Positions 4,392 to 43,091 of a stretch of 64,000 bases of DNA are shown in pieces. The notes under the pieces are model-generated. The model was not told where the DNA came from. It searched no databases and was given only the letters and a program-made list of their open reading frames with translations. Origin of the DNA: Obelidium mucronatum. Its lineage: Eukaryota > Chytridiomycota > Chytridiomycetes > Chytridiales > Chytriomycetaceae. Position 1 is the first letter of the stretch. Each line of letters begins with the position of its first letter. Both the position numbers and the translations under genes were made by a program. The stretch covers positions 1-64,000 of the forward strand of contig JAIVFH010000003.1 of the NCBI GenBank assembly GCA_025765595.1. Direction: 5' to 3'.

Positions 4392-4533
4392 TGTTGTAGA
4401 GGGACTGGAAGCGGTGCTGGTTCTGTAGACAGGTGAGCTGATTGTTGTGGACACTAGAGAGATTTTGGAGAGAATTCTTAAACTTTATTCCCAAACATGG
4501 AGCTTGCAACATGAGTTTCATGTGCCTCCAACA
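4392..4533 (-). repeat. 3' LTR of truncated copia element 2, left copy
   Basis: On the minus strand it begins TGTTGGAGGCACATG just after a purine run (GAGGGGAAG) and ends CTCTACAACA, giving TG..CA ends and 142 bp. The mirror copy is 25,315-25,456. The downstream flanks differ between arms (GTTAT here, CAACC on the right), so the LTR end is also the palindrome edge. No matching 5' LTR was found. Confidence 0.7.
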
Positions 4534-4840
4534 CTTCCCCTCAAGCAAACATGATTGAATAAAGAATGAATTGAACAACAATCAGACTTGCGTCATGTGA
4601 CATGAATGTGACATGATTAATTGCCAATGATTGATTAAGGCTTGGTGATTGTCACGTGATGGTGCCTTCCCCTTGATCGTGTGAATCGCTTGAGAGTTGT
4701 GTCTTTCTGTGCGGTATTGCGTTATTACACCCTGTGTCAGATTCTTACTGACTAAAACACTCGTCCCTCGCTCAACCATTAAAAAGGCGAAGCAAGGATA
4801 AAGTGAAACCTTCATAGGCGGATATGTAATAATCGAACAA

Positions 4841-4913
4841 GTGCGCAGAGCAGGTCTTGAACCTGGGTTGTCATGGTAGTAGACTTGTATTCTAACCAAT
4901 GAACTGAGTGGTT
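4841..4913 (-). other. tRNA-like sequence in copia element 2, decayed copy
   Basis: Mirror of the better copy at 24,907-24,978. The B-box-like GGTTCAAGACC is intact, but the A-box-like part reads CAGTTCATTGG and the D- and T-stem pairs are partly lost. Not a functional tRNA. Confidence 0.45.
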
Positions 4914-5078
4914 GGTTTTCTTGTGTACTTTTGAACTTGAATAATTTTTCTATGTGAGTTGTATGTTTAAAATATGAAGTATTCTATAGTCTAGAATCAA
5001 AATCGAGTTGAATTGAATAGAGTTGACTTAGCATTATTGGGGGCAAATCACGACTAGCCCCAATGCGTATCGTGGAAG

Positions 5079-6915
5079 TCAATCTTGAATCGTGAATAGT
5101 TCAATTATAATTGCGGTAAGAGACATCATGCCAAATTTGGCACGTAGTTTCTTGAATTGATCGCGTCCAAGGCACTTGGTGAGTAAATCGGCTGGCTGGT
5201 CAGCGGTCTTGATCCAAGTGACCTTGACTTGTTTTAAATTGACTAGTTTGCGAATGTAGTGGTATCGAATGTTGATGTGTTTTGATTGATGTGAGAATAC
5301 GTCATTGTTGCATTGATGAATAGTAGACTGGTTATCTTCGAATACTTGAATTGGTTTTTCGAGTGGTATGTTGAGTGTATCGTATAGCTGAATAAAAGAC
5401 TGTAGTTCGCATCCTAGTTCGCTGATAGACATGTATTTGGCTTCTGTAGATGAGAGTGGGGTGACTGGAGTCTTGGTTGATTTCCAGCTGATGACGCCAT
5501 CCGCAAGGACAACCATGTAGCCAAGCTGCGACTTAGCTTCGTGGTGGATGTTGTACACGGCGTCACTGTAGCCGATAGGACTTGAATTGCCTTGTTTGGA
5601 GTAGAAGATACCGTGGTCTTGTGTGTCATGGATGTAGCGGAAGACACGCATGAGGTCTTCCCAGTGTTGTTGTGATGGTTTGCTGGAGAAGATAGATAGG
5701 AAAGAGATAGCTGTAGAGATTTCCGGGCGAATGTTGATAGCTGCGTAGTTGAGGCATCTGATGGCTTCAAGGTATAGGGATGGGTTGTTGAATAAGGGGG
5801 TGGTGTCTGATGCTGGAGTTGGTGAAAATGAGCTTGGCAAGGGAGTGGAAATTGGATAATGCAAAAAATGCCCTGTAAATCGCTCCAAGATTTCCTTGAT
5901 GTATTTTGATTGGTGGATGAAGATTCCGGAGGGCATGTGTTCAACTTGTATTCCAATTGTGTAGGTAATTTTTCCTAAGTCTCACATTGTGAATTCCTTC
6001 CTAAGAGAAATCACGCCCTCATCGATAAGTGCTTGGTCACCAAAGAAACACAAGCCGTTGACGTAGATAGCCAAGTACACCGTCTTGCCATCCACAGTCT
6101 TAAAGAAGACGCACAGGTCCGCTTTCGACTGAGTATATTCTGTTTCTTTGAGGTGAGTCGTCAACTTCTTATACCATATACGACCTGCTTGTTTTAATCC
6201 ATAAAGTCCTTTTAGGAGTTCATAGACCCTGCCGGTTCCATCGTCTTATCCGGGAGGCTGCTTCAGGTTTGTCGATATCGCCATACAAGTATGCGGTGCT
6301 CACGTCTGACATGTGGGTATCCCACCCGTTGATTGCTGTGAGCGATAAAAGCCATCTGAAGGTTGCAGCGCGCATAACCAGTGAGTGAGTTTCTGTATAA
6401 TTCAATCCGAATTGTTGTGTGTATCCCTGAGCAACTAAACAGGCCTTAAATCTTTCAGCATATCTGTCGCTGTTCAACTTGACCTTGTAAACCCATTTGC
6501 TGCCAACAATATTGATGCCGTCAGGAGCTTTGACAAGTCTATAGGTCTTGTTATCCACAAGCCCGTCGAGTTCGGCTTTTTCGGCTGCAAGCCATTCTTC
6601 TTGAAATTTGCTCTTCATAGCTGCGTTCCGTGTCTTCGGTGATTCAGGAGTCTTTGAGATTGGCGTCGAGGTAAGTGGTACGTCGTGTAATTTGTCTTCG
6701 ATTGTCGCTGATGACCATTCTTCACCAAAAACATGTGTTTCTTCTTCGTCGAGTGTCGGTGAGCAAAGTAGCGTCGTCACAAGCAGTGTGCGTGATTTGC
6801 TGAGTCTCTGAGACATGCATCGCGGCGCCGTTGCTGGTTTTGGTACTGTTGGTGGTGGCTGCGGCGGCGGTCGTACCGAAGTACCAAGACCTTGGCTTGT
6901 TAAGGTACGTTTCAT
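5079..6915 (-). pseudogene. copia element 2 RT/RNase H, left copy, decayed
   Basis: Minus-strand frames give a Ty1/copia RT and RNase H: VGSKWVYKV, ARLVAQGYTQQFG-like, STAYLYGDID and YMSISELGCELQSF. They end with the usual TKCLGRDQFKKLR tail. Compared with the mirror copy at 22,912-24,710, it has a frameshift near 6,250, a broken catalytic motif (YVNG for YVDD near 6,050) and many C-to-T or G-to-A changes at CpG. It keeps a 25 bp piece near 5,900 that the right copy has lost. The N-terminus (from 6,915) is Pro/Thr-rich and no gag, protease or integrase is present. Confidence 0.88.
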
Positions 6916-7564
6916 TGCACTTTTGAGTGGTTTTGTGGTTTTACTAAGTGTTAATTGTATTGTGATTAGTGTATTGTTGTTGATTTGAGCGATTGAGGTC
7001 AGAGTATATGTGTTTTTGTAATGATGTGTGTTGAAAGTTGTTTTGATTTTTGTAGTGATATTGTATGTGGAGATTTTCCTCTCTTCGAGAGTACTTCCAA
7101 TTGTATGTGGCTACTGTTGATTTGCGGCGAGCTAATGTAAGCTTTATGTGGTTAATTGTTTGTCAGGAGAGAAGTTGTTGTCTTTTTCCCTGCCACAGAC
7201 TCCGCTTTTATAGCGTTTTACTGTTGCTTTAGTCTTTTACATGTGAGCAGCTGTTAAACCACATCCTGCCAAGGTCCAAAAGCATAACCCATCTCTGGTT
7301 AAGGCGTCCCTTAATCTCGGCAGCGCACGGCCGATGTATTATGGTGTTTTGGTTTGGAGAGCATGCAGGAAAGATGGACTTGGTGCAGCGGTCAAGGCCC
7401 TGGCTTTGAGAGCGTTATGCCCCAGGTTCGAATCACAGAAACTCCTTTTATTCTAACAATAAAGATTCGGGTTGAATTATTCAATCCGTATAACTTATAG
7501 TTTATTTCTAATCTCTGTTAAGTAGTGCAAGTGATATTGTATCTATTATGCGTAATACTCAACA
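6916..7564 (-). other. copia 1 3' LTR and copia 2 leader, left copy
   Basis: Non-coding mirror of 22,263-22,911. On the minus strand it begins TGTTGAGTATTACGC after the purine run GCGGGGGAA. It contains a TATA-like CTATAAAAG and ends near ACAATTAACA, so about 627 bp of it could be one LTR. With no second copy of this LTR in the window, its limits are inference. Confidence 0.5.
7374..7446 (+). other. tRNA-like sequence, left copy
   Basis: An A-box match (TGGTGCAGCGG, 7,381) and a B-box match (GGTTCGAATCA, 7,425) are 44 bp apart, the spacing of a class I tRNA gene. A T run follows. The T-stem and anticodon stem do not pair, so this is a tRNA-derived or mimicking sequence inside the LTR region and not a tRNA gene. 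The mirror copy differs by one base in the B box. Confidence 0.45.
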
Positions 7565-7577
7565 TTCCCCCGCAATA

Positions 7578-9703
7578 TTACTTGGCTGCGTTTTGGGGTG
7601 TGGTGGAAGATTTGACTTCTTGCAACATAGCCAAACTTCGTAACCCAAGATTGAATGTCGCCTCTCGATGTTCAGTAGGCCCAACTGCTTTCGTTAAGAA
7701 ATCAGCCCACATTTGTTTTCGGTCGGAGTGTCCTCAAGGACCACTGTGCCGTTGTTAATGTGGTAGTTTAAGTTCTTATCTTTCACGTCCATATGTTTAA
7801 TACGTTGATGTTGACCTTCCTCATTAGTGATGAGAATACTTGACGTGTTATCAATAGCAATATGATCTTGAACAGAAATACCCAAAGATTTCATAAGCTG
7901 CAATAGCCAGATAATCTCGCGTATGGCTTCAGAGAGCGCAATGAGTTCTGCTTCAGTGGATGACAAAGCAACAGTAGTCTGTTTCCTTGACTGCCACATG
8001 ATTGCAGCGCCAGCGAAGAGAATAACAATGCCTGTTCTAGAAGCGCGTCCTTTAGCTTCAGCAAAGCTTGCATCTGCGTAGCAGATTGGCCGTAGTGTAG
8101 GATCATTTAGGAAATACTTTCCCCCACCAATGCGTAAGATTTCATTACCTGGTTTCTGGTAACAAATTCCCAAATCGCGCGTACCGTTGAGATATAGAAG
8201 AACGCGTTTGAGCGCTTTCATGTCCCCATTGGTAGGTTGAGTCTGGTATTGTGAAAGAATGCCAATACTACAAGAAAGATCGGGACGAGTCTTCCCTGCT
8301 AAGTATAGTAAGCACCTGACCACAGATCGATATGCTGCGGACTCAGCAACATTAAGAAAACCTAACGTATCGTCATGTTTCCAGTTCCTGGTCATCGGAT
8401 TTGGTGCCGTGTCAGTAGAATATTCTAGTCCTGCAAACGTTAAAATTTGCTTCGTGTAAATTGGTTGACCAATCCACGTAGAATCTTCAAATTGAACAAT
8501 CTCCACTTTGAGAAACCATTCAGCAGGTCCCTGCTTACCTTTACCAAAGCGTTGGTTCAGCTTCATTAATTGAAATTCAGCTTCAACTTTATCTTCAGTA
8601 ATGTAAAGCAAGTCGTCAACATGACTAGCCATTTGTAAAGTGTTCTCTGGGCCGTTCGGCTCCTTAGGAGGTAGAGTTTTGATTAGATGACAAATGTCAG
8701 CAGGATCAGACTCAAACCCGAGAGATTTGTGAAAATTGATGAGAGTTTCAAACCAAATACGCGAGGCTTGGTGAATCCCGTAAAGAGACTTGTCAAGCCT
8801 ACAGACAATTACTTGCCCATGTATATTGACTTTTCTAAACCCATGCGGCATTTATAGATACAGTTGCGTATCTGTTTCACCATGTACAAATGCGTTTGGG
8901 ACATCCACTTCGAAAACAAATTTACCTGTGAGCACTGCGAAAGCAATAAGAAACCGAATAGTCTCTGTTTGCGCAACAGGTGAGTAAGTTTTGAAATAAT
9001 CAAGATTCTTGACTTGGGAAAATCCGCGTGCAACCCAGCGGGCTTTAAAACGTTCCAAAATTCCTTTGGCAGAAATTTTGAAAGCAAAAACCCACTTGCC
9101 TGACATAAGGCGAGCGCCTTCCGGTAAGACAGTTTCTGCCCAAGTCTCATTATTCATGAGTTCGTTGTATTCACGTATCATGGCAGCTAACCAATAGGCA
9201 GCAAAGACTGGGTCTGCCATGGCCTCCTTGACAGTGTTTGGGATCTGAGGCAAGTTTCTTTTCGTAGGCACCGGGCTCGGGGCCGGAGTTACCCAAGTGA
9301 ACTTGGCAAGGTGATCACGTAAGAAAAACAAAAGGGGTGAACTAGAGTCTAGCAGTGACAATTTTACTGCTTTTGCAATATCAAAGTCATTAGCTTCCCA
9401 ATCTGGCAAGGATTCTTTGTCTGAATCAGAACCCTCGGAATCCAATTTTTCCGATGAATCATCATCACGTGGCAGCAATGAAGATTGTGGTTCAGGTTCA
9501 AGACTCGAATTAGACATTCCTGAAGTGTCTAACAAATCAAGCGGATAGCTGGCCTCAGCTAACTCAAGAGTGGAATCTTGAGGATTCATACCAAGGTGAA
9601 TGGCATCATGAACAATAACGTGACGTAACTGGTCAACTTTACCTGTCCGATAGTTTTCTACTAAGTAAACTTGACTGTCAGGATCTCTACTATCTTCGGC
9701 CAT
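7578..9703 (-). pseudogene. copia element 1 RT/RNase H, left copy
   Basis: A near-complete Ty1/copia RT-RNase H in one frame: GKWVFAFKI, FKARWVARGFSQ, FVFEVDVPNAFVHG, RLDKSLYGIHQASRIW, HVDD at the catalytic site, TRPDLSCSIGILSQYQ, SSTEAELIALSEA and RIKHMDVK. Two lesions are shared with the right arm and so predate the duplication. One is an in-frame TAA at 8,852-8,854, before MPHGF. The other is a one-base shift near 7,710, after which ADFLTKAVG is found in another frame. The N-terminal DSQVYLVEN is encoded by the 30 bp inverted repeat. Confidence 0.92.
9651..9680 (+). repeat. 30 bp inverted repeat at RT edge of the integrase cassette, left arm
   Basis: Encodes the shared peptide DSQVYLVEN on the minus strand as the RT entry. 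Its exact reverse complement is at 10,803-10,832. Confidence 0.85.
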
Positions 9704-9723
9704 CAGGAGCTTCCAATACTGCC

Positions 9724-10833
9724 ATGGAAACCAACAAAGGTAAACGCAAGCGAGATGTTTACTTTTCGGTTACTGATGAACCTACCTCTCTTTTAGGTGA
9801 CGATTCTGCCCCCAGGGGAGAAATTGCTCCGGACGTTGCTGTTGATGAAGTTGAGAAGGGCTTGGACGCTACTAAGGTAAAGTCTACAAAAGTCAAACCG
9901 GTTAGTGTACCTCAAACTAAACGTGATTCACAAAACAGATTGCTGACGCGTAAACAGCAGGGTTTGACCTTGGTAGAACTTCAAGATTTGCATCGGAAGT
10001 TTGGTCATGCGAACATCTCTTCTGTTCTTTTTACTTTGAATAACGTGAATAAATCTAAAATCTATGTTGTTGATGATTCTCTTCAATATATGTTTTTGAC
10101 ACCAACTTTTGAGAATTGTCTGATTTGTGCTAAGCATAAAATGACACGCACAGAAATTTATTCTACAAACAATCCTGCAACACACATTGGTGGTAGACTT
10201 CATGCAGACATTATCCACCTGGATGATTCATCTCCGGATGATGATTCCTATTGGTTATGTATTGTCGATGAATTCACGCGATGGATTTCCATTTATCTTT
10301 TGGAATCTAAAAGCGACGCATGTTCTACAATGCGCCAACACATTGGCAAATTTGAACGCGACCACAGCATAATTGTGGGGGAAATACGTTCTGACACTGC
10401 AGAACTGATGACAACACAATGGTTTATTGATTTTTGCTCTAAGCGCATCAATAAAATTGAGTTGACTGCATCTCCTCCTTATTTTAAAGAATTCAACGGT
10501 CTTGTAGAACGTACAGTTTGTACTTTGAAAGGTATGACTGAGTGCTTACTATCACAAAGTAAACTGCCGCGTGAGTATTACTATACATACGCGCTGTTTT
10601 ATGCAGCGTTTTTGAAGAACATGTTGTTTCATCCTTACCTGAAAGGAACACCATTCTTTGCGCTCTTTAAAAGACATGCTGACACTAAGGACGCCCGCGT
10701 TTTTGGTTCCCTTGCAAGCATTCTCATCTTTGATGAACAACGCTCAAGGAGAAACATTATTGAAAAGTCTGAACTCGGTGTATTTCTTGGTTACAAAGGA
10801 ATTGACAGTCAAGTTTACTTAGTAGAAAACTAG
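9724..10833 (+). pseudogene. copia element 1 GAG-pre-integrase and integrase, inverted, left copy
   Basis: An intact 369-codon frame with the zinc-binding pre-integrase pattern (LHRKFGH, CLICAKH) and an rve integrase core carrying D (HADIIHLD), D (IRSDTAEL) and E (FNGLVERTV). The C-terminus reads GVFLGYKGIDSQVYLVEN and stops. It runs opposite to the RT of the same element, although copia order is integrase then RT on one strand. It differs from the right copy by Thr for Lys in MFLTPTFE. The segment has been inverted, so the element cannot make a normal polyprotein. Confidence 0.92.
10803..10832 (-). repeat. 30 bp inverted repeat at distal edge of the integrase cassette, left arm
   Basis: Reverse complement of 9,651-9,680. 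It encodes the last residues (DSQVYLVEN) of the inverted integrase frame. Confidence 0.85.
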
Positions 10834-11012
10834 TTACTAGTTTTGATGATTTCAGCTAGATCATTCAGTTTCTTTAATATTGTTCTAAACTACTGATTGG
10901 GCGTTTACCTGTACTTGGAGATGTCTGTGCTTTGGCATCCCGATATCTCCGCAAGAATTTCAACAGTCTCTATCCAGTACCCTGGTGGCTTAGAATCTTC
11001 AATTCGGTCGCC

Positions 11013-11618
11013 TCACGCGTTGCATAAAGAGTCTCCATATTTTGCAGATTTTTGTTGTAGGTTGATGAAACTGCCGACCCAGTGACTGTTGTTAATATGG
11101 GTGGGAACAACAATCTGAGCACAAGATAAATTGATGGAATTTGATAGGAAAAAATTCTTGCCAATGCCTTTAGTGATAATAGATGTCTTTGTTTCCCCTT
11201 TCGCAAGTAGTGATATGACAGCAGAGACATCACCAGGATCCAGTACAATGACGTCCTTCATGTTGGAGTTTGCAACAATGGATTTCAAGCAGAATGAAAT
11301 AACACATCCATGAAACCACTTCTTGCCAGCAATGCTGATCACATCTTCCAACGTCAAGTCTGAAGAGACATTTCCAAGTTGAAGATGAACCTTGAGAAAA
11401 TTCTGACGCAGCCTGCCTAAGAATAATAGATTCTCATTCTGGGTATCCTGAGTGTCGATCCATTGTATGACAGACTTTAATACCTCCCGCAGTATCGTAA
11501 GTTGGTGATACACCACCTGACTGTTTATCTCATGATACATATACAGTGTACGATCGAAGACAGTAAAAGAGTTCTTCACGGCTCGCAAAAGTAGATGATT
11601 TTGAATGGCAGTAGCCAC
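11013..11618 (-). pseudogene. Ulp1/C48-like protease fragment, left copy
   Basis: A 201-codon frame ending in the first half of a C48 (Ulp1/SENP) protease catalytic region: QIVVPTHINNSHWVGSFI with the His, then SAKYGDSL with the Asp. The following Gln and Cys motifs are missing because the frame stops at LCNA. Ulp1-like proteases are often carried by fungal and plant DNA transposons, so this may be transposon cargo. It has no clear start context and is probably non-functional. The copy at 18,209-18,814 is the same. Confidence 0.6.
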
Positions 11619-11722
11619 ATCAAAGGAAAGGAGTCACCTGACTGCCTTGCCACTTGGCATCAAACACCAACAGTCCTTGGAAACAACGCGCTCCTCTTGC
11701 TCTTCACCACTCTCTTGCGTGA

Positions 11723-12163
11723 TTACATCGTTCCTTCTTCGGTAGATAATGTCACGCCGTACCTGAGTTGTAATGTTTTACTCTTCAAGACCCACATGAC
11801 AAGCTGGGGAGCCCAACCAAGTAACTCTGTCAGCCTCTCCAAAAGCAAAACGGCACTGAAGGCTGTCGCGGCGTCCAGAGTCTTTCCTTCAACGAGCGTG
11901 TAGACGGTAAACGTGACAAAGAAGCATAGGATACTGTAGGTGAAATTACTAATGTGCAGCGTGATATAAATAAAACTGAGTTTGAGAAAGATAATGTCAC
12001 GCCGTACCTGAGTTGTAAGGGGGTAAAAACAGCCAGGTGCATCAATCAACAGAGCCACAGTCCATGTCGCTCGAGCGACTGTTGCAGCATGTTCTCCCTC
12101 ATCTGGAGCTTCCACAGGTTCGTCGACCCCTGCAATGCCTGGACCATCATTGAGTGTCGCCAC
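11723..12163 (-). pseudogene. ABCC-type transporter fragment, left copy
   Basis: Within this 146-codon frame, about 75 residues resemble part of the first transmembrane domain of an MRP/ABCC transporter (FFVTFTVYTLVEG, LDAATAFSAVLLLERL, WAPQLVMWVLKSK). No nucleotide-binding domain is present. The piece is bounded by two direct copies of a 30 bp sequence (11,744-11,773 and 11,989-12,018). It looks like a captured or stranded exon of a host gene. Identical to 17,664-18,104. Confidence 0.6.
11744..12018. repeat. pair of 30 bp direct repeats around the ABCC fragment, left arm
   Basis: The same 30 bases (starting AGATAATGTCACGCC on the plus strand) occur at 11,744-11,773 and 11,989-12,018, a period of 245 bp. 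Confidence 0.8.
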
Positions 12164-12445
12164 TATTCTTGGTTTGACAGGTGCACGTCAATTTCGCAAG
12201 TACATCGCTGCCAGTGTTGGATGCTCTGGTACATTGCCAGCATTACTTGGGTTTAGGATGGGTCTGTTTCGAGTTGTTCCTAGTCGTGTTTTGCCAAACA
12301 TGGCGGGCTGCTTTGAATGTTGTCTTGAAACAAATTTCGATAACTTTACAATCGAGTAATGGTGTGCTTTTTTGGAATAAAATTAATTTTAAGGTGGGGT
12401 ACAACGCAGCTACACATATTAAATCATACACCCCCTTACGACCCT
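12008..12445. repeat. MITE-like inverted-repeat segment, left copy
   Basis: Mirror of 17,382-17,819: about 435 bp with GTNGTAAGGGGGT at both ends in opposite orientation. CAGG flanks each side as a possible 4 bp duplication. No coding content is recognised. Confidence 0.3.
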
Positions 12446-12537
12446 GCGTAGTGAGGGGGGGTATGACCGAAGCGTGAAAAGGGACGGTATGAAATAATTT
12501 TTTCCTCTTTATATTGTAACCAGACAATGGAAAACAT

Positions 12538-12543
12538 TTTATT
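12538..12543 (-). terminator. polyadenylation signal of surface gene A
   Basis: AATAAA on the minus strand about 195 bp past the stop codon of the minus-strand surface gene. Confidence 0.5.
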
Positions 12544-12736
12544 CAGAATTCAAAATATGCAGATACAGAATGGAAGAGTGTAGAAAAAAATGACTCAAGC
12601 AAAAGTCGAAATCAGAAGCCAATGGCAGTAAAATATGTGAAAAATCAGGAGAATGAATGCTCCATCAATATCATAAATGGACCAGAAAGCGAACTAGAGA
12701 TCAATAAAAAAGTAGAAAGACAATCAAATCAACCAC

Positions 12737-14285
12737 TTAAAGCATGAAAAGGCCAGCAAGTGTGGCAATTCCCGCAGCGACAGTATTGGCAGAAGAGCCA
12801 ACAACATAGATTCCAGTCTTGACTGGAACAACTGGTGCTACCGGCGATGGAACTACAACCTTAGTAGTGACAACTCCGGTGGTGGTAACAATAACTGGTG
12901 GGACAACAACTGGGATAGCGTTAATGGATCCCTGATTACAGATCTGGGCAACATTGTTCGAGTTCTCTGTGATACAAGCATAGATGGTGCTTCCGTTGAA
13001 GCTGGTGGATCCAACCAATGGAGTGGAGACTTCGGATTGGTTGCATTCCTGCTTGACGGTGGCAGAGTTGTTAACCACACAGAGGAAGCACTTGGAACCT
13101 GCAGCACAGTTGATGACAAAGGATCCAGAGCCGTTGGAGTCGGCAGTTTTGGTGGTGGTGGTGGCAACAGCAGCGGTGGTGGTGGCAGCAGTGGTGGTAG
13201 TGGCAGCAGCAGAGGTGGTGGTGGCAGCAGCAGAGGTGGTGGTACTGGCAGAAACAGAGGTGGTGGTGGTGGCAGCAGCAGTAGTGGTGGTTGTAGCAGA
13301 TGCAGTGGTGGTGGTTGTAGCAGATGCAGTGGTGGTGGTAGTAGCAGATGCAGTGGTGGTGGTAGTGGCAGATGCAGTGGTGGTGGTAGTCGCAGGAGCA
13401 GTGGTGGTGGTAGTGGCTTCAATTGGAACAGTGAATCCAGTAACGCTAACAGGGCCGCTCTTTTCAACAGTCACACTGACAATTGCAATGTTCTTAGTTC
13501 CAGAGTTGATGTACACCTTCCCATTAGCAGTGTGGACCCAAACATCGGTGACAGACGCTGGCAAGTCAGCAGCAACAATCAACTCGCCCGCTTCAGTAAT
13601 CTGAGTGGTGATGGTCTTTCCAGCAAGAACATCGTAACCAAATCCAGAGGCAGTCAAAAACTTCTGGCCAGAAACAATAACGGCAAGCTTGTTACCAGTA
13701 GCTGAGGCAACAATTGGGACAGCGAGGTCATCAGCAGTAGCAACAGCTTGACGACGCTTGCGTCCTCCGGTTGTAACAACCTGGGCGTGGTCAGACGGTA
13801 ACACACCGACACCACGCAGTTCGTCTAACTGTTTTTGGGTAAAATATCCCGCACTAGTGTACCCCTGAGGGCCAGCGGCAGCCTGCCTGTCGTCACCAAC
13901 TGTGGAAGAGATAGGGCAAAACTTGATAAGTTGGCACGCCTTGACAAACATGTTAACAAGGGCTCAAATCATCGAATGAATCCTCACCACACTGTTAGAA
14001 AGGAGAGGGTCCTCGTCAGTCACTGTCGCAACCTTGGCCGAAACTTCGTACAAATTGTCACACACTTCATCGATTCCAGGAAGCTGATTGAAACGTTAGA
14101 CATCTGCCAATTGAATGCAAAAAACAGACCAATAATGTGGTTAGTGACGGATTGAATGAAACTTTGAATAGTGTTTCCAAGGCGAGCTTGTTTTCAGCTG
14201 CATTGCTGTAAGAATTGATATGACCACATGATAACAGTGCCGACGCCTGTCCAGCAAAGGCAATAATTTTGATGAAAGGAAACAT
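12737..14285 (-). CDS. Thr-rich GPI-type surface protein A (short paralog)
   Basis: Three exons on the minus strand: 14,285-14,130, 14,083-13,988 and 13,939-12,737, giving 484 residues. Introns are 46 and 48 bp; the first has an unusual GTCTGT donor, chosen because it keeps the frame and matches the paralog. It starts with a hydrophobic signal-like peptide (MFPFIKIIAFAGQASALLS). A short Cys-containing region and a conserved beta-rich segment (KTITTQITEAGELIVAADLP) follow. Next come a Thr/Ala stalk of ATTTTTAS repeats and a Cys-containing segment. The hydrophobic tail NTVAAGIATLAGLFML fits a GPI-attachment signal. From RRQAVATADD onward it is almost identical to gene B; before that it is a diverged paralog. 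A wall or adhesin role is inference. Confidence 0.8.
13147..13414 (-). repeat. Thr/Ala codon repeat (stalk), left copy
   Basis: ACC/ACT-rich tandem repeat encoding ATTTTTAS-like units. It has four full SATTTTTA units against three in the mirror copy, a 24 bp length difference. Confidence 0.9.
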
Positions 14286-14434
14286 TATCGTTCTGGATGG
14301 GAAAATGGAGAAGGCGGAATTTTCACCTAGGGCCATGCGTGAGGTCCGTGCCACTCGCATGGCTTACTTCAATCGCATGGCTCAGCAGTTTATTTAAATA
14401 ATGAAAATGAGGGTACTGGAAAAGACTGACAAAA
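14286..14434. promoter_or_regulatory. shared divergent promoter of surface genes A and B
   Basis: Only 149 bp separate the two start codons (14,285 minus, 14,435 plus), so both genes must be driven from here. An AT-rich TTTATTTAAATAA at about 14,391 could serve as a TATA-like element for gene B. No known operator is recognised. Confidence 0.6.
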
Positions 14435-17090: not shown

Positions 17091-17283
17091 GTGGTTGATT
17101 TGATTGTCTTTCTACTTTTTTATTGATCTCTAGTTCGCTTTCTGGTCCATTTATGATATTGATGGAGCATTCATTCTCCTGATTTTTCACATATTTTACT
17201 GCCATTGGCTTCTGATTTCGACTTTTGCTTGAGTCATTTTTTTCTACACTCTTCCATTCTGTATCTGCATATTTTGAATTCTG

Positions 17284-17289
17284 AATAAA
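17284..17289 (+). terminator. polyadenylation signal of surface gene B
   Basis: AATAAA about 195 bp after the gene B stop, in a T-rich 3' region. Confidence 0.5.
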
Positions 17290-17360
17290 ATGTTTTCCAT
17301 TGTCTGGTTACAATATAAAGAGGAAAAAATTATTTCATACCGTCCCTTTTCACGCTTCGG

Positions 17361-17407
17361 TCATACCCCCCCTCACTACGCAGGGTCGTAAGGGGGTGTA
17401 TGATTTA
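17361..17407. repeat. C/G-run hairpin downstream of gene B
   Basis: TCATACCCCCCCT and AGGGGGTGTATGA can pair around a short loop containing CACTACGCAGGGT. It could be a transposon end or a 3' structural element. The mirror copy lies at 12,420-12,466. Confidence 0.4.
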
Positions 17408-17819
17408 ATATGTGTAGCTGCGTTGTACCCCACCTTAAAATTAATTTTATTCCAAAAAAGCACACCATTACTCGATTGTAAAGTTATCGAAATTTGTTTC
17501 AAGACAACATTCAAAGCAGCCCGCCATGTTTGGCAAAACACGACTAGGAACAACTCGAAACAGACCCATCCTAAACCCAAGTAATGCTGGCAATGTACCA
17601 GAGCATCCAACACTGGCAGCGATGTACTTGCGAAATTGACGTGCACCTGTCAAACCAAGAATAGTGGCGACACTCAATGATGGTCCAGGCATTGCAGGGG
17701 TCGACGAACCTGTGGAAGCTCCAGATGAGGGAGAACATGCTGCAACAGTCGCTCGAGCGACATGGACTGTGGCTCTGTTGATTGATGCACCTGGCTGTTT
17801 TTACCCCCTTACAACTCAG
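17382..17819. repeat. MITE-like inverted-repeat segment, right copy
   Basis: GGGTCGTAAGGGGGTG at 17,382 and its inverted partner (ACCCCCTTACAACT) near 17,803-17,817 bound about 435 bp. CAGG lies next to each end. The short imperfect ends make this tentative. The minus-strand frame inside (GLTGARQFRKYIAAS and on) belongs to no family I recognise. Confidence 0.3.
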
Positions 17820-18104
17820 GTACGGCGTGACATTATCTTTCTCAAACTCAGTTTTATTTATATCACGCTGCACATTAGTAATTTCACCTACAGTATCCTA
17901 TGCTTCTTTGTCACGTTTACCGTCTACACGCTCGTTGAAGGAAAGACTCTGGACGCCGCGACAGCCTTCAGTGCCGTTTTGCTTTTGGAGAGGCTGACAG
18001 AGTTACTTGGTTGGGCTCCCCAGCTTGTCATGTGGGTCTTGAAGAGTAAAACATTACAACTCAGGTACGGCGTGACATTATCTACCGAAGAAGGAACGAT
18101 GTAA
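17664..18104 (+). pseudogene. ABCC-type transporter fragment, right copy
   Basis: Mirror of 11,723-12,163 with the same translation. It is a stretch of an ABCC transmembrane domain (FFVTFTVYTLVEG to VMWVLKSK) with no ATPase domain nearby. The 30 bp direct repeats at 17,809-17,838 and 18,054-18,083 border it; the second is read as LQLRYGVTLS inside the frame. Confidence 0.6.
17809..18083. repeat. pair of 30 bp direct repeats around the ABCC fragment, right arm
   Basis: Identical 30-mers (starting TTACAACTCAGGTACGG) at 17,809-17,838 and 18,054-18,083. Confidence 0.8.
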
Positions 18105-18208
18105 TCACGCAAGAGAGTGGTGAAGAGCAAGAGGAGCGCGTTGTTTCCAAGGACTGTTGGTGTTTGATGCCAAGTGGCAAGGCAGTCAGGTGACTCCTTT
18201 CCTTTGAT

Positions 18209-18814
18209 GTGGCTACTGCCATTCAAAATCATCTACTTTTGCGAGCCGTGAAGAACTCTTTTACTGTCTTCGATCGTACACTGTATATGTATCATGAGAT
18301 AAACAGTCAGGTGGTGTATCACCAACTTACGATACTGCGGGAGGTATTAAAGTCTGTCATACAATGGATCGACACTCAGGATACCCAGAATGAGAATCTA
18401 TTATTCTTAGGCAGGCTGCGTCAGAATTTTCTCAAGGTTCATCTTCAACTTGGAAATGTCTCTTCAGACTTGACGTTGGAAGATGTGATCAGCATTGCTG
18501 GCAAGAAGTGGTTTCATGGATGTGTTATTTCATTCTGCTTGAAATCCATTGTTGCAAACTCCAACATGAAGGACGTCATTGTACTGGATCCTGGTGATGT
18601 CTCTGCTGTCATATCACTACTTGCGAAAGGGGAAACAAAGACATCTATTATCACTAAAGGCATTGGCAAGAATTTTTTCCTATCAAATTCCATCAATTTA
18701 TCTTGTGCTCAGATTGTTGTTCCCACCCATATTAACAACAGTCACTGGGTCGGCAGTTTCATCAACCTACAACAAAAATCTGCAAAATATGGAGACTCTT
18801 TATGCAACGCGTGA
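18209..18814 (+). pseudogene. Ulp1/C48-like protease fragment, right copy
   Basis: Mirror of 11,013-11,618 with the same 201-residue translation. It keeps the His and Asp regions (HINNSHWVGSFI, KYGDSL) of a C48 protease and lacks the Cys half. It lies between the ABCC fragment and the inverted copia integrase, so it is probably debris of a DNA transposon. Confidence 0.6.
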
Positions 18815-18993
18815 GGCGACCGAATTGAAGATTCTAAGCCACCAGGGTACTGGATAGAGACTGTTGAAATTCTTGCGGAGATATCGGGATGCCAAAGCAC
18901 AGACATCTCCAAGTACAGGTAAACGCCCCATCAGTAGTTTAGAACAATATTAAAGAAACTGAATGATCTAGCTGAAATCATCAAAACTAGTAA

Positions 18994-20103
18994 CTAGTTT
19001 TCTACTAAGTAAACTTGACTGTCAATTCCTTTGTAACCAAGAAATACACCGAGTTCAGACTTTTCAATAATGTTTCTCCTTGAGCGTTGTTCATCAAAGA
19101 TGAGAATGCTTGCAAGGGAACCAAAAACGCGGGCGTCCTTAGTGTCAGCATGTCTTTTAAAGAGCGCAAAGAATGGTGTTCCTTTCAGGTAAGGATGAAA
19201 CAACATGTTCTTCAAAAACGCTGCATAAAACAGCGCGTATGTATAGTAATACTCACGCGGCAGTTTACTTTGTGATAGTAAGCACTCAGTCATACCTTTC
19301 AAAGTACAAACTGTACGTTCTACAAGACCGTTGAATTCTTTAAAATAAGGAGGAGATGCAGTCAACTCAATTTTATTGATGCGCTTAGAGCAAAAATCAA
19401 TAAACCATTGTGTTGTCATCAGTTCTGCAGTGTCAGAACGTATTTCCCCCACAATTATGCTGTGGTCGCGTTCAAATTTGCCAATGTGTTGGCGCATTGT
19501 AGAACATGCGTCGCTTTTAGATTCCAAAAGATAAATGGAAATCCATCGCGTGAATTCATCGACAATACATAACCAATAGGAATCATCATCCGGAGATGAA
19601 TCATCCAGGTGGATAATGTCTGCATGAAGTCTACCACCAATGTGTGTTGCAGGATTGTTTGTAGAATAAATTTCTGTGCGTGTCATTTTATGCTTAGCAC
19701 AAATCAGACAATTCTCAAAAGTTGGTTTCAAAAACATATATTGAAGAGAATCATCAACAACATAGATTTTAGATTTATTCACGTTATTCAAAGTAAAAAG
19801 AACAGAAGAGATGTTCGCATGACCAAACTTCCGATGCAAATCTTGAAGTTCTACCAAGGTCAAACCCTGCTGTTTACGCGTCAGCAATCTGTTTTGTGAA
19901 TCACGTTTAGTTTGAGGTACACTAACCGGTTTGACTTTTGTAGACTTTACCTTAGTAGCGTCCAAGCCCTTCTCAACTTCATCAACAGCAACGTCCGGAG
20001 CAATTTCTCCCCTGGGGGCAGAATCGTCACCTAAAAGAGAGGTAGGTTCATCAGTAACCGAAAAGTAAACATCTCGCTTGCGTTTACCTTTGTTGGTTTC
20101 CAT
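18994..20103 (-). pseudogene. copia element 1 GAG-pre-integrase and integrase, inverted, right copy
   Basis: A 369-codon frame on the minus strand, head-to-head with the RT frame that starts at 20,124. It carries the HHCC-like pre-integrase pattern and an integrase core with D, D and E. The last ten residues duplicate the first residues of the RT frame because both come from the 30 bp inverted repeat. If 19,025-20,146 were turned round, integrase would read straight into RT through GYKGIDSQVYLVENYRTGK. This shows that the segment was inverted in an ancestor of both arms. Confidence 0.92.
18995..19024 (-). repeat. 30 bp inverted repeat at distal edge of the integrase cassette, right arm
   Basis: Exact reverse complement of 20,147-20,176. 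Immediately outside is a short palindrome, AAAACTAGTAACTAGTTTT, overlapping the repeat. Confidence 0.85.
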
Positions 20104-20123
20104 GGCAGTATTGGAAGCTCCTG

Positions 20124-22249
20124 ATGGCCGAAGATAGTAGAGATCCTGACAGTCAAGTTTACTTAGTAGAAAACTATCGGACAGGTAAAGTTGACCAGTT
20201 ACGTCACGTTATTGTTCATGATGCCATTCACCTTGGTATGAATCCTCAAGATTCCACTCTTGAGTTAGCTGAGGCCAGCTATCCGCTTGATTTGTTAGAC
20301 ACTTCAGGAATGTCTAATTCGAGTCTTGAACCTGAACCACAATCTTCATTGCTGCCACGTGATGATGATTCATCGGAAAAATTGGATTCCGAGGGTTCTG
20401 ATTCAGACAAAGAATCCTTGCCAGATTGGGAAGCTAATGACTTTGATATTGCAAAAGCAGTAAAATTGTCACTGCTAGACTCTAGTTCACCCCTTTTGTT
20501 TTTCTTACGTGATCACCTTGCCAAGTTCACTTGGGTAACTCCGGCCCCGAGCCCGGTGCCTACGAAAAGAAACTTGCCTCAGATCCCAAACACTGTCAAG
20601 GAGGCCATGGCAGACCCAGTCTTTGCTGCCTATTGGTTAGCTGCCATGATACGTGAATACAACGAACTCATGAATAATGAGACTTGGGCAGAAACTGTCT
20701 TACCGGAAGGCGCTCGCCTTATGTCAGGCAAGTGGGTTTTTGCTTTCAAAATTTCTGCCAAAGGAATTTTGGAACGTTTTAAAGCCCGCTGGGTTGCACG
20801 CGGATTTTCCCAAGTCAAGAATCTTGATTATTTCAAAACTTACTCACCTGTTGCGCAAACAGAGACTATTTGGTTTCTTATTGCTTTCGCAGTGCTCACA
20901 GGTAAATTTGTTTTCGAAGTGGATGTCCCAAACGCATTTGTACATGGTGAAACAGATACGCAACTGTATCTATAAATGCCGCATGGGTTTAGAAAAGTCA
21001 ATATACATGGGCAAGTAATTGTCTGTAGGCTTGACAAGTCTCTTTACGGGATTCACCAAGCCTCGCGTATTTGGTTTGAAACTCTCATCAATTTTCACAA
21101 ATCTCTCGGGTTTGAGTCTGATCCTGCTGACATTTGTCATCTAATCAAAACTCTACCTCCTAAGGAGCCGAACGGCCCAGAGAACACTTTACAAATGGCT
21201 AGTCATGTTGACGACTTGCTTTACATTACTGAAGATAAAGTTGAAGCTGAATTTCAATTAATGAAGCTGAACCAACGCTTTGGTAAAGGTAAGCAGGGAC
21301 CTGCTGAATGGTTTCTCAAAGTGGAGATTGTTCAATTTGAAGATTCTACGTGGATTGGTCAACCAATTTACACGAAGCAAATTTTAACGTTTGCAGGACT
21401 AGAATATTCTACTGACACGGCACCAAATCCGATGACCAGGAACTGGAAACATGACGATACGTTAGGTTTTCTTAATGTTGCTGAGTCCGCAGCATATCGA
21501 TCTGTGGTCAGGTGCTTACTATACTTAGCAGGGAAGACTCGTCCCGATCTTTCTTGTAGTATTGGCATTCTTTCACAATACCAGACTCAACCTACCAATG
21601 GGGACATGAAAGCGCTCAAACGCGTTCTTCTATATCTCAACGGTACGCGCGATTTGGGAATTTGTTACCAGAAACCAGGTAATGAAATCTTACGCATTGG
21701 TGGGGGAAAGTATTTCCTAAATGATCCTACACTACGGCCAATCTGCTACGCAGATGCAAGCTTTGCTGAAGCTAAAGGACGCGCTTCTAGAACAGGCATT
21801 GTTATTCTCTTCGCTGGCGCTGCAATCATGTGGCAGTCAAGGAAACAGACTACTGTTGCTTTGTCATCCACTGAAGCAGAACTCATTGCGCTCTCTGAAG
21901 CCATACGCGAGATTATCTGGCTATTGCAGCTTATGAAATCTTTGGGTATTTCTGTTCAAGATCATATTGCTATTGATAACACGTCAAGTATTCTCATCAC
22001 TAATGAGGAAGGTCAACATCAACGTATTAAACATATGGACGTGAAAGATAAGAACTTAAACTACCACATTAACAACGGCACAGTGGTCCTTGAGGACACT
22101 CCGACCGAAAACAAATGTGGGCTGATTTCTTAACGAAAGCAGTTGGGCCTACTGAACATCGAGAGGCGACATTCAATCTTGGGTTACGAAGTTTGGCTAT
22201 GTTGCAAGAAGTCAAATCTTCCACCACACCCCAAAACGCAGCCAAGTAA
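20124..22249 (+). pseudogene. copia element 1 RT/RNase H, right copy
   Basis: Mirror of 7,578-9,703. An acidic linker (about 20,200-20,500) precedes RT motifs (GKWVFAFKI, FEVDVPNAFVHG, SLYGIHQASRIW, HVDD) and RNase H (SSTEAELIALSEA). Lesions are TAA at 20,973-20,975 between TQLYL and MPHGF, and a frameshift near 22,115. From there the terminal ADFLTKAVG..AAK runs in another frame to a stop at 22,247-22,249. TETIWFLIAF here versus TETIRFLIAF on the left is one of the few arm differences. Confidence 0.92.
20147..20176 (+). repeat. 30 bp inverted repeat at RT edge of the integrase cassette, right arm
   Basis: Encodes DSQVYLVEN at the start of the RT part. Inverted partner at 18,995-19,024. Confidence 0.85.
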
Positions 22250-22262
22250 TATTGCGGGGGAA

Positions 22263-22889
22263 TGTTGAGTATTACGCATAATAGATACAATATCACTTGC
22301 ACTACTTAACAGAGATTAGAAATAAACTATAAGTTATACGGATTGAATAATTCAACCCGAATCTTTATTGTTAGAATAAAAGGAGTTTCTGTGATTTGAA
22401 CCTGGGGCATAACGCTCTCAAAGCCAGGGCCTTGACCGCTGCACCAAGTCCATCTTTCCTGCATGCTCTCCAAACCAAAACACCATAATACATCGGCCGT
22501 GCGCTGCCGAGATTAAGGGACGCCTTAACCAGAGATGGGTTATGCTTTTGGACCTTGGCAGGATGTGGTTTAACAGCTGCTCACATGTAAAAGACTAAAG
22601 CAACAGTAAAACGCTATAAAAGCGGAGTCTGTGGCAGGGAAAAAGACAACAACTTCTCTCCTGACAAACAATTAACCACATAAAGCTTACATTAGCTCGC
22701 CGCAAATCAACAGTAGCCACATACAATTGGAAGTACTCTCGAAGAGAGGAAAATCTCCACATACAATATCACTACAAAAATCAAAACAACTTTCAACACA
22801 CATCATTACAAAAACACATATACTCTGACCTCAATCGCTCAAATCAACAACAATACACTAATCACAATACAATTAACACTTAGTAAAAC
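22263..22889 (+). repeat. probable 3' LTR of copia element 1
   Basis: Starts TGTTGAGTATTACGC after a purine run (GCGGGGGAA), 14 bp past the RNase H stop. It contains CTATAAAAGCGG at about 22,613 as a promoter-like TATA and could end at ACAATTAACA. No second LTR copy remains, so the right limit is a guess. Confidence 0.5.
22381..22453 (-). other. tRNA-like sequence, right copy
   Basis: Mirror of 7,374-7,446, with A box and B box 44 bp apart. The B box reads GGTTCAAATCA here, one base different from the left. Stems do not pair well. Confidence 0.45.
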
Positions 22890-22911
22890 CACAAAACCAC
22901 TCAAAAGTGCA

Positions 22912-24710
22912 ATGAAACGTACCTTAACAAGCCAAGGTCTTGGTACTTCGGTACGACCGCTGCCGCAGCCACCACCAACAGTACCAAAACCAGCAACGGC
23001 GCCGCGATGCATGTCTCAGAGACTCAGCAAATCACGCACACTGCTTGTGACGACGCTACTTTGCTCACCGACACTCGACGAAGAAGAAACACATGTTTTT
23101 GGTGAAGAATGGTCATCAGCGACAATCGAAGACAAATTACACGACGTACCACTTACCTCGACGCCAATCTCAAAGACTCCTGAATCACCGAAGACACGGA
23201 ACGCAGCTATGAAGAGCAAATTTCAAGAAGAATGGCTTGCAGCCGAAAAAGCCGAACTCGACGGGCTTGTGGATAACAAGACCTATAGACTTGTCAAAGC
23301 TCCTGACGGCATCAATATTGTTGGCAGCAAATGGGTTTACAAGGTCAAGTTGAACAGCGACGGATCTGTTGAACGTTTTAAGGCGCGTTTAGTCGCTCAG
23401 GGATATACACAACAATTCGGATTGGATTATACGGAAACTCACTCACCGGTTATGCGCGCTGCAACTTTCAGATGGCTTTTATCGCTCACAGCAATCAACG
23501 GGTGGGATACCCGCATGTGCGACGTGAGCACCGCGTACTTGTATGGCGATATCGACGAACCCGTCTACATGAAGCAGCCTCCCGGATACGACGATGGAAC
23601 CGGCAGGGTCTATGAACTCCTAAAAGGACTTTATGGATTAAAACAAGCGGGTCGTATATGGTATAAGAAGTTGACGACTCACCTCAAAGAAACAGGATAT
23701 ACTCAGTCGAAAGCGGACCCGTGCGTCTTCTTTAAGACTGTGGATGGCAAGACTGTATACTTGGCTATCTACGTCGACGACTTGTGTTTCTTTGGTGACC
23801 AAGCACTTATCGATGAGGGCGTGATTTCTCTTAGGAAGGAATTCAAAATGCGAGACTTAGGAAAAATTACCTACACAATCGGAATACAAGTTGAACACGT
23901 GCCCTCCGGAATCTTCATCCACTGGAGCGATTTACAGGGCATTTTTCGCATTATCCAATTTCCACTCCCTTGCCAAGCTCATTTTCACCAACTCCAGCAT
24001 CAGACACCACCCCCCTCTTCAACAACCCATCCCTATACCTTGAAGCCATTGGATGCCTCAACTACGCAGCCATCAACACTCGCCTGGACATCTCTACAGC
24101 TATCTCTTTTCTATCTATCTTCTCCAGCAAACCATCTCAGCAACACTGGGAAGACCTCATGCGCGTCTTCCGCTACATCCATGATACACAAGACCACGGT
24201 ATCTTCTACTCTAAACAAGGCAATTCAAGTCCTATCGGCTACAGTGACGCCGCGTACAACATTCACCATGAAGCTAAGTCGCGGCTTGGCTACATGGTTG
24301 TTCTCGCGGATGGCGTCATCAGCTGGAAATCAACCAAGACTCCAGTCACACCACTCTCATCTACAGAAGCCGAATACATGTCCATCAGCGAATTAGGACG
24401 CGAACTACAGTCTTTTATTCAGCTATACGATACACTCAACATACCACTCGAAAAACCAATTCAAGTATTCGAAGATAACCAGTCTACAATTCATCAATGC
24501 AACAACGACGTATTCTCACATCGATCAAAACACATCAATATTCGATACCATTACATTCGCGAACTAGTCAATTTAAAACAAGTCAAGGTCACTTGGATCA
24601 AGACCGCTGACCAGCCAGCCGACTTACTCACCAAGTGTCTTGGACGCGATCAATTCAAGAAACTTCGTGCCCAATTCGGCATGATGTCTCTTACCGCGAT
24701 TTCAATTTAA
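22912..24710 (+). pseudogene. copia element 2 RT/RNase H, right copy
   Basis: Begins with a Pro/Thr-rich stretch and reads a good copia RT (SKWVYKVKL, RFKARLVAQGYTQQFG, CDVSTAYLYGDI, KGLYGLKQAGRIWYKK, YVDD at ~23,777). Near 23,925 a 25 bp deletion relative to the left copy shifts the frame. RNase H continues in another frame to 24,710 (TEAEYMSISELGRELQSF, SKHINIRYHYIRE, LLTKCLGRDQFKKL). Gag, protease and integrase are missing, so the element was already an internal-deletion derivative before the arms formed. Confidence 0.88.
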
Positions 24711-24906
24711 ACAATTCACAATTCAAGATTGACTTCCGCGATACGCATTGGGGCTAGTCGTGATTTGCCCCTCATAATGCTAAGTCAATTCTATTCAATT
24801 CAATTCGATTTTGATTCTAGACTATAGAAACTTCCATATTTTAAACATACAACGCATATAGAACGATTCAACTATTTATTCAAGTTCAAAAGTACACAAG
24901 AAAACC

Positions 24907-24978
24907 AACCACATAGCTCAATGGTCAGAGCTCAAGTCCGCTACCAAGACAACCCGGGTTCAAGACCTGCTCTGTGCA
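24907..24978 (+). other. tRNA-like sequence in the 3' region of copia element 2
   Basis: An A-box match TAGCTCAATGG (24,914) and B-box match GGTTCAAGACC (24,957) are 43 bp apart. The D arm (GCTC..GAGC) and T arm pair well, but the anticodon arm does not. It lies in about 600 bp of non-coding sequence between the RNase H stop and the purine run before the LTR. It could be a SINE-type head or an internal Pol III promoter. Confidence 0.5.
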
Positions 24979-25314
24979 CTTGTTGATTATTACATATCCG
25001 CCTATGAAGGTTTCACTTCATCCTTGCTTCGCCATTTTAATGGTTGAGCGAGGGACAAGTGTTTTAGTCAGTAAGAATCTGACACAGGGTGCAATAACGC
25101 AAGACCGCACAGAAAGACACAACTCTCAAGCGATTCACACGATCAAGGGGAAGGCACCATCACGTGGCAATCACATGAACTTCGCCGAACCCGAATTAAT
25201 CACCAAGCCTTAATTAATCATTGGCAATTAATCAAGTCACATTCATGTCACATGATCCAAGTCTGATCGTTGTTCAATTCATTCTTTATTCAATCATGTT
25301 CGCTTGAGGGGAAG

Positions 25315-25456
25315 TGTTGGAGGCACATGAAACTCATGTTGCAAGCTCCATGTTTGGGAATAAAGTTTAAGAATTCTCTCCAAAATCTCTCTAGTGTCCA
25401 CAACGATCAGCTCACCTGTCTACAGAACCAGCACCGCTTCCAGTCCCTCTACAACA
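25315..25456 (+). repeat. 3' LTR of truncated copia element 2, right copy
   Basis: TGTTGGAGGCAC..CTCTACAACA, 142 bp, after the purine run GAGGGGAAG. Its end is the outer edge of the palindrome. Confidence 0.7.
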
Positions 25457-28600: not shown

Positions 28601-29357
28601 CGACTCAATCGCATCCTGATATTCAATATTCAGTAAATACGTTGGCACAATTCCAGAGAGACTCACGCGAGTGTGACTGGAGTGCAGTGATACGCATTTT
28701 GAAGTACTTGCGATTCACTGTAGACTTGGGTATAACATTCTTCAAGAGTAAAGGAATCGAATCTGTGGTATACATGTCAAATACTGATGAGTTACTAAAC
28801 ATGGAACCGATTGATTTACCTGAAGGTATGAAACCTATGGGCTATACTGATGCCAGTCATGCTATGGAAGATGACAGAAAGTTGCAATCCGGATACATAT
28901 TCATGGTATTTTGCGCTCCAATTATCCCAAGAAGCAACCGACGGTAGCATTGTCTTCATGTGAGGCTGAATTGATTGCACTGGTTGAAGGTACCAAAGAG
29001 GGATCCTGGATTCGAGACTTCTTTAGGGAGTTAGGATTTTAATTGGATGAACCTACGGTAATGCAACAGGACAATCAAGTGGTTATTGCGATAGCGGTGA
29101 ATCCTATACATCATGCAAGGATTAAACATATGGAAGTCAAGAACCACTACATACCTGAAAGCGTAGACAATAGGACCATTATACTCATATATTGTCCGAC
29201 CAATTTGATGATAGCGGATGTTTTGACGAAAGCTCTTCCTGCACCTCAACATTGGAAACTGTTGGAGGTGTGGGGGATGAGACGACTCTCGGAACTAAGA
29301 GATGGTCAAAAGGACAAAGCTCACCTTGCGATATATTCGATCGATGCTGATGAATAA
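25666..29357 (+). pseudogene. copia element 3, degenerate pol
   Basis: Order is as in Ty1/copia. A pre-integrase stretch (YLQFHVQFGHIGQELL, CVTCQL) starts at 25,666. A badly broken integrase follows to about 26,460 (LNSKDDFTEEFIKFL; AGLTHRMFHFAMNYA), then an acidic linker (26,560-27,550). RT at 27,517-28,947 is still well preserved (SSKWVFDYKTD, QLDVETAFLYGTL, SLYGLHQAGRKWYK, YVDD at ~28,270). A frameshift near 28,910 separates RT from RNase H, which ends at 29,357 (CPTNLMIADVLTKALP). No gag or 5' LTR is identified; the left side is next to the palindrome edge. Confidence 0.88.
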
Positions 29358-30583: not shown

Positions 30584-30760
30584 ACATCGTGTTTTGAGAG
30601 GTCATTCGGCCCCCTGGACGTCCGATTCGGAGAGAGCGTTCATTAGACCTATCCCCCTGCAGAGTCCAATTTCAGCGTAAAGCGGAGCATGGCCTCATTA
30701 GATGGACCATGCGCCCACCACAAATGGCGTAACGCAAATTTTCCATATGCAAAAGGCAAC

Positions 30761-43036: not shown

Positions 43037-43091
43037 GTTTTCTCTTTTCGTTTTTTTCTTGTTGCTCAATGGAGGGTTAAGACTCCTAATC

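Follow-up and report, generated by a model that had tools for sequence, protein, structure and literature searches.

An inverted 7.3-kb tract joining a head-to-head gene pair to copia-like elements in Obelidium mucronatum

The gene pair and the inverted arms

Analysis of a 64,000-nt window of the genome of Obelidium mucronatum, a chytrid (aquatic fungus), revealed two genes lying head to head within an inverted repeat. The left gene (12737-14285, minus strand; exons 14285-14130, 14083-13988 and 13939-12737) encodes 484 aa and the right gene (14435-17090, plus strand; exons 14435-15703, 15755-15850 and 15906-17090) 849 aa, with models identical to the NCBI entries BDR26DRAFT_1003031 of O. mucronatum and BDR26DRAFT_914384, respectively. 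The right product has a Cys-rich part and a Thr-rich stretch, together with a signal-like start and a hydrophobic tail read by eye, and judged by their sequence the two are paralogous, putative surface-protein genes. Each carries a Thr-codon repeat, at 13150-13417 in the left gene (units of about 24 bp, one more than in the right) and at 16434-16675 in the right gene. For the two genes, Pfam gave nothing above cut-off and the PDB no sequence match at E up to 1. Homologue searches returned only itself for the right gene (1 of 7997 scored candidates), and itself plus five weak matches for the left (6 of 7985). Two remnants of the family lie further along the plus strand: a decayed member at 30740-32264, with an internal stop, no 3′ part and a 40% amino acid match to exon 3 at 31791-32234, and a fragment at 49446-49801 comprising only the 3′ end of a member (86.7% to 16772-17129). 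The window contains no tRNAs and no Rfam families at the gathering score.

Self-blastn of the window aligned 4392-13756 with 25456-16095 at 97.7% identity over 9414 columns, reproducing exactly the arms proposed in the initial annotation, and this match is too long and too alike to be due to chance. Between the arms, the core (13757-16094) holds the 5′ parts of both genes. It is itself non-palindromic, and an assembly fold-back was rejected on this ground. Among the matches listed (40 of 64 candidates scored), no other near-identical copy of the core occurs, and it is matched only by diverged stretches on C109, the location of a paralogue. Arm identity varies along the length, in one step at 6465|6466 and with no gradient (2dLL 305): mismatches amount to 112 of 2048 aligned bases outside this split and to 5 of 7267 inside it. 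The near-identical inner tract extends over 6466-13756 on the left (7291 bp) and 16095-23361 on the right (7267 bp). Its two copies differ by the five scattered mismatches and by one 24-bp indel in the Thr-codon repeat (13304-13327 on the left, missing from the right), and apart from this unit 10898-13756 is free of mismatches. The arms are thus non-identical in the ways first described, including a more diverged outer 2 kb. Nevertheless, only the 7.3-kb inner tract forms the palindrome proper, and the 9.4-kb arm is not one duplication.

The inner edge (13756/16095) lies within exon 3 of both genes, with the 3′ part of the left gene from 13756 outward and that of the right gene from 16095 on falling inside the tract. 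Comparison of the two exons bears out the earlier proposal that this edge sits in a coding run shared by paralogous genes. Upstream of the edge, the N-terminal parts encoded by exon 3 are 54.6% identical in nucleotides and 42.6% in amino acids over 61 codons, with a dS of 1.7. Downstream, the genes agree fully in the next 114 codons and in the last 129, and one 24-bp repeat unit is the sole difference in these coding parts. Frame and alignment register are both preserved at the junction. The C109 paralogue is somewhat closer to the right N-terminal part (dN 0.60) than to the left (dN 0.80), but rates vary along the gene, and neither direction of copying is favoured by this comparison.

Transposon sequences in the arms

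Outward of the step, each arm consists of the distal part of a copia-like element, at 4392-6465 on the minus strand and at 23362-25456 on the plus strand, and both end in the same terminus, TGTTG, at 4392 and 25456. The assignment to the copia type follows an RVT_2 match above cut-off and a TG terminus common to the dispersed copies; TGTTG is found in 18 of 19 rows, the remaining row having TGTTT. The element is abundant (at least 50 matches), and 20 loci were cut from these matches, two being the arms and the other 18 serving as reference copies. The outer edge, initially described as a copia LTR end, is a retrotransposon terminus and putatively an LTR end; the terminal 309 bp have at least 41 matches, among which no pairs were assignable to one element. 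The shared start of these matches is uninformative on where the element ends because the query begins there, a point covered by the comparison of flanks.

The outer left arm is 94.53% identical to the outer right arm and 93.57-94.98% identical to the 18 other copies. In order of identity to the left arm, the right arm comes 7th of 19 rows; in order of identity to the right arm, the left arm is last of 19. Since the 153 pairs among the other copies range from 94.61 to 99.90% (median 96.04%), the outer arms stand as distant from each other as any pair of copies. The flanks of the element match at 9 of 50 bases between the left and right arms, against a median of 12 of 50 over 171 pairs; 17 of the 18 copies entered this comparison, C128b being left out as its match begins at base 76. 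Because the insertion-site flanks are unrelated and the distance is that to other copies, we read the outer 2.07 kb from sequence comparison as independent insertions, one per arm, of a single dispersed copia-like element. The greater divergence noted at first therefore stands, but the outer 2 kb are not part of a 9.4-kb unit, and the unrelated flanks led us to reject an older or fast-evolving part of one duplication. An AU test of the outer part did not reject the two arms as sisters (p 0.446); the family tree is star-like, so that the independence of the insertions rests on flanks and distances and not on topology.

The same element continues for 656 bp within the inner tract (6466-7121 on the left, minus strand), where the arms are 99.85% identical and appear as sisters with 100/100 support. 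This inner part of the left arm is 91.88-95.11% identical to 16 other copies; C254 and C107 were left out of the inner tree because their inner part is interrupted. Next to it lies a second, truncated copia-like element (7122-10833, minus strand), with RVT_2 above cut-off and rve and SH3_retrovirus below theirs. Its integrase piece of about 1.15 kb (9681-10832) lies in inverted orientation between inverted ends of 30 bp, and in copies on C405, C550, C70 and C41 the two pieces match on opposite strands. The inversion is common to both arms and was not seen among the copies listed elsewhere. An open frame at 11013-11633 (minus strand) has a borderline match to the Ulp1/C48 peptidase family (PF02902; E 3.6e-4, 20.9 bits for a cut-off of 20.7).

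Copying between the two sides and its alternatives

At both ends of the inner tract, the sequence switches abruptly from diverged to near-identical, within homologous sequence and in register, and each side retains its own outer flanks and its own 5′ gene part, as a transposed block would not. We infer that the tract was probably copied from one side onto the other by ectopic gene conversion or gap repair. The starting state would have been two paralogous surface-protein genes in an ancient head-to-head arrangement, with separately inserted copies of the same copia element beyond each gene, on opposite strands. One side, probably the right, would have suffered a break or gap that was repaired from the other side, with synthesis proceeding in register from within exon 3 outward for 7.3 kb and ending inside the copia element, where both sides were again homologous. 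The event would thus have been bounded by two unrelated anchors, the paralogous gene on the inner side and the retrotransposon on the outer, and would have left a palindrome in which the two genes share one 3′ half. A point against conversion is that the inner anchor may have offered little homology at the time (54.6% in nucleotides just 5′ of the edge). A comparable two-tier identity is seen in another inverted copia pair, C200, with 1 mismatch across ten windows of 200 bases followed by 29 in about 1350 aligned bases; its flanks match at no more than 19 of 50 bases.

The direction of copying was approached through the copia sequence. The distance of the right arm from the C190 copy rises from 2.92 to 5.05% across the step (p 0.013), and against the three other reference copies the same step gives p values of 0.043, 0.17 (C128a) and 0.023. 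For the left arm, none of the four references reveals a step (p 0.69-1). Likewise, the inner/outer distance ratio of the right arm (1.57) is the highest of 18 copies, compared with 1.09 for the left arm. The test also yields low p values for pairs without arms (C200R against C190, p 0.0062, and against C128a, p 0.021), and left-to-right copying is weakly favoured.

The copied stretch may have been already homologous on the two sides, or gap repair may have crossed non-homologous DNA. A tentative and more far-reaching form of the proposal is that the palindrome arose with no prior inverted duplication, through gap repair over two anchors that copied kilobases of previously non-homologous interior; retrotransposons would then set the reach of 3′-half homogenisation in the gene family.

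An old palindrome of full length, renewed by recurrent conversion between its arms as on the Y chromosome but with the outer parts escaping, would also leave a near-identical tract between two diverged ends. In its favour, the remnants of the gene family at 30.7-32.3 kb and 49.4-49.8 kb show an old cluster at this place, and an old sister relationship of the outer parts is compatible with the AU test. We nonetheless consider it unlikely, as the outer homology stops at the element terminus with unrelated flanks, as in separate insertions, the ends have diverged very unequally (about 5% against about 45%), and C109 has none of the listed matches to the arm interior. A single old duplication over the whole arm is at odds with the terminus, the unrelated flanks and the family-level distance, even though tree topology by itself would allow the arms to be sisters. 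Between the recent duplication and the continuing conversion initially suggested, recent copying from arm to arm is supported, but continuing conversion is not called for, since one event explains the five scattered mismatches. Inversion of the core through recombination between the arms, likewise raised at the outset, may occur. End joining or fold-back replication usually yields near-identical inverted copies flanking a short core, as seen here. Such a homology-independent, one-step inverted duplication with a chance landing is scarcely credible for this locus, because homologous sequence surrounds both edges and alignment register is kept at each, with the reading frame kept as well at the inner edge, and chance joining would hardly achieve this twice.

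The palindrome could also reflect the assembly, if a single real arm had been entered twice or sequences had been misjoined across the copia repeat. The left edge is near the contig start (window position 1 is C3:1), the copia element is abundant, and near-identical local duplicates occur elsewhere in the assembly, for example one of 8443 bp at 99.99% on C41. The left junction itself is 6.5 kb from the contig end and within a dispersed repeat, where misjoins are easiest, which counts against gene conversion. A missed-adapter read gives a palindromic core, unlike the one found here, and the inner junctions border sequence just 54.6% identical, leaving an overlap assembler little reason to misjoin. 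The reading frames of both genes are clean and their models annotated, and a misjoin at 6465 would alter the outer part only. The five mismatches and the 24-bp indel between the arms, first taken to dismiss a collapsed contig, make it improbable. Taken together, an artefact appears very unlikely.

Relation to known systems

The origin of palindromes is hard to see, as most are found once their arms have long been alike. At the Obelidium locus, both copying edges can be closely placed and the older, non-palindromic state is still legible beyond each of them. If the interior was non-homologous, dispersed transposons would have acted as landing sites that turn gene conversion into segmental copying on the kilobase scale. 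The locus would also exemplify a route by which two diverged putative surface-protein genes acquired an identical mucin-like 3′ half. Among the papers listed in our literature searches, none reports this locus; papers retrieved with the species name and "genome" were titled on TPPP proteins.

The palindromes of mammalian Y chromosomes have near-identical inverted arms carrying genes, explained by gene conversion. The Obelidium arms resemble them in being near-identical, inverted and gene-bearing, but measure 7.3 kb, can be accounted for by one event, and owe their outer homology to separate transposon insertions.

Long-tract gene conversion in yeast likewise copies long tracts from a donor, and gap repair, half-crossover and late template switching in break-induced replication are among the routes proposed in the parts of that study considered here (PMC8473981). 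There the setting is a fragile site in a diploid, whereas here paralogous loci in inverted orientation share a contig, and the two anchors are unrelated. Ectopic recombination of the copia-type element Ty1 in yeast, which occurred mostly without crossover in a haploid test, is similar in being non-allelic conversion between dispersed LTR-element copies; the events in the sections cited are conversions of Ty itself or crossovers between Ty copies (PMC9879454), whereas the Obelidium tract leaves the element and runs on for about 6.6 kb into a gene. Inverted repeats next to a break also influence repair in yeast, steering it off plain gene conversion in the single-strand annealing work considered in part here, but the products described are inverted dimers, fold-backs and break-induced replication (PMC6103520), while distinct flanks and the core are retained on both sides in Obelidium. 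Set beside these systems, the locus seems to illustrate clearly a DNA-repair process that is already known and not a new kind of element, the double anchor being its interesting part.

Two-tier identity of the inverted repeat

Comparison of the window (the initial 64 kb of the 741,013-bp contig C3, in an assembly of 48.3 Mb and 694 contigs) with itself reproduced exactly the inverted repeat of the initial annotation, 4392-13756 against 25456-16095. The repeat stands, but its description as a single 9.4-kb arm does not, since the arm alignment is split by an identity step between 6465 and 6466, within a copia-type reverse-transcriptase frame. Outside the step, 112 mismatches are found over 2048 aligned bases, compared to 5 over 7267 inside it, where a single 24-bp Thr-codon repeat unit also differs, in agreement with the more diverged outer ~2 kb and the Thr-repeat indel reported earlier.

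From 6466 inward, the inner tract (6466-13756 and 16095-23361) contains the rest of the outer-arm copia element, a second, truncated copia element with its integrase part inverted, a frame with a borderline profile match to Ulp1 and, at its inner end, the 3' half of a gene. The inverted integrase part (9651-10832), framed by 30-bp inverted ends, is common to both arms. Among the matches listed, this inversion was not seen in the copies on contigs C405, C550, C70 and C41, where two pieces of the second element are matched on opposite strands. The shared inversion, not seen in these other copies, marks the inner arms as copies of one original.

Gene pair and transposon at the tract edges

The core (13757-16094) holds the 5' parts of two head-to-head genes (left, 12737-14285, minus strand; right, 14435-17090, plus strand), both composed of three exons that splice in phase; the left and right models are identical to the NCBI proteins BDR26DRAFT_1003031 and BDR26DRAFT_914384, respectively, of the chytrid Obelidium mucronatum. 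Read by eye, the right gene product is a putative surface protein, with a signal-like start, a Cys-rich part absent from the left gene, a Thr-rich stretch and a hydrophobic tail. As annotated initially, the inner edge lies in a coding run common to two paralogous genes. Upstream of it, the exon-3 parts (61 codons) share 42.6% amino acid and 54.6% nucleotide identity with a dS of 1.7, values indicating old homology. Identity changes at RRQAV with frame and register kept, and the 114 codons directly downstream, as well as the last 129 codons, are identical in both genes; over 10898-13756, the sole difference from the other arm is the 24-bp repeat unit.

A paralogue on contig C109 (89225-91719) has the same gene layout, with a change of frame within the Thr repeat. 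Its 3' end is 90.7% identical in amino acids to the window genes (dS 0.61) and its first exon 47.8% (dS 2.0), a contrast that stronger constraint, or an earlier conversion of the 3' module, may explain. Family remnants at 30740-32264 (lacking the 3' part) and 49446-49801 (3' part only), separated by ~17 kb of mostly transposon-like sequence, represent one or two members, perhaps one gene split by insertions.

The outer arms (4392-6465 and 23362-25456) belong to a dispersed element, 2.07 kb of which has at least 50 matches in the genome. Its start, TGTTG, is found at both 4392 and 25456. Beyond it, 9/50 bases match between the arms; over 171 pairs from 19 rows the median is 12/50, with only two pairs above 21. 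The outer arms are 94.53% identical to each other. Against 18 other copies, the left arm shows 93.57-94.98% identity (the right arm being 7th closest of 19) and the right arm 94.88-97.08% (the left arm being the most distant of 19). Owing to these unrelated flanks and family-level distances, we read the outer arms as independent, oppositely oriented insertions of one element. Taken alone, a topology test of these arms did not reject their sisterhood (p 0.446), the element family being star-like. Over the inner 656 bp of this element, the arms share 99.85% identity and group as sisters at 100/100 relative to 16 other copies. Elsewhere in the window, a copia-type element (38216-43330) has 239-bp direct terminal repeats with 100% identity to each other, suggesting a very recent insertion.

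Probable direction of copying and a second element pair

The right arm is the probable recipient. Relative to copy C190, the distance of the right-arm element rises from 2.92% outside the step to 5.05% inside (p 0.013), compared to 5.02% and 4.89% for the left arm. With copies C200R, C128a and C221 as references, right-arm p values are 0.043, 0.17 and 0.023, and those of the left arm are at least 0.69. The inner/outer distance ratio averaged over references is 1.57 for the right arm, the highest of 18 copies, and 1.09 for the left. This evidence is weak, as some pairs without either arm reach similar p values.

Contig C200 (12000-31800) carries a further inverted pair of the outer-arm element, with at most 19/50 matching flank bases (below the top eight pairs). 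The two copies differ by a single mismatch across ten 200-base windows (27831-29830, ~2 kb); next to these, 29 mismatches fall in ~1350 aligned bases, and there is a gap of ~600. This two-tier identity suggests that conversion between inverted copies may extend beyond the window locus. Near-identical local duplicates, such as a directly repeated segment on contig C41 (216500-234456; at least 8443 bp, 99.99% identity), which is either a recent event or an assembly duplicate, call for care about the assembly when reading the C200 pair.

A probable single copying event and its parallels

Both tract edges lie in register inside homologous sequence, yet the two homologies are mutually unrelated, an old gene pair inside and a transposon outside. 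The simplest account of the inner tract is one event copying 7.3 kb from one side to the other. Such an ectopic gene conversion or gap repair would have entered within the gene, run 7.3 kb outward and exited within the copia element. A misjoin at the left outer junction, which lies in repeat sequence 6.5 kb from the contig end, would not affect the inner junctions or the inner arms. Homology of the replaced recipient DNA separates plain conversion from double-anchored copying of non-homologous DNA, the more novel version. In yeast, long conversion tracts attributed to gap repair or template switching are described (PMC8473981) and resemble the present case in being long stretches copied from a donor; non-allelic conversion between Ty1 copies (PMC9879454) is alike in involving dispersed copies of one element.
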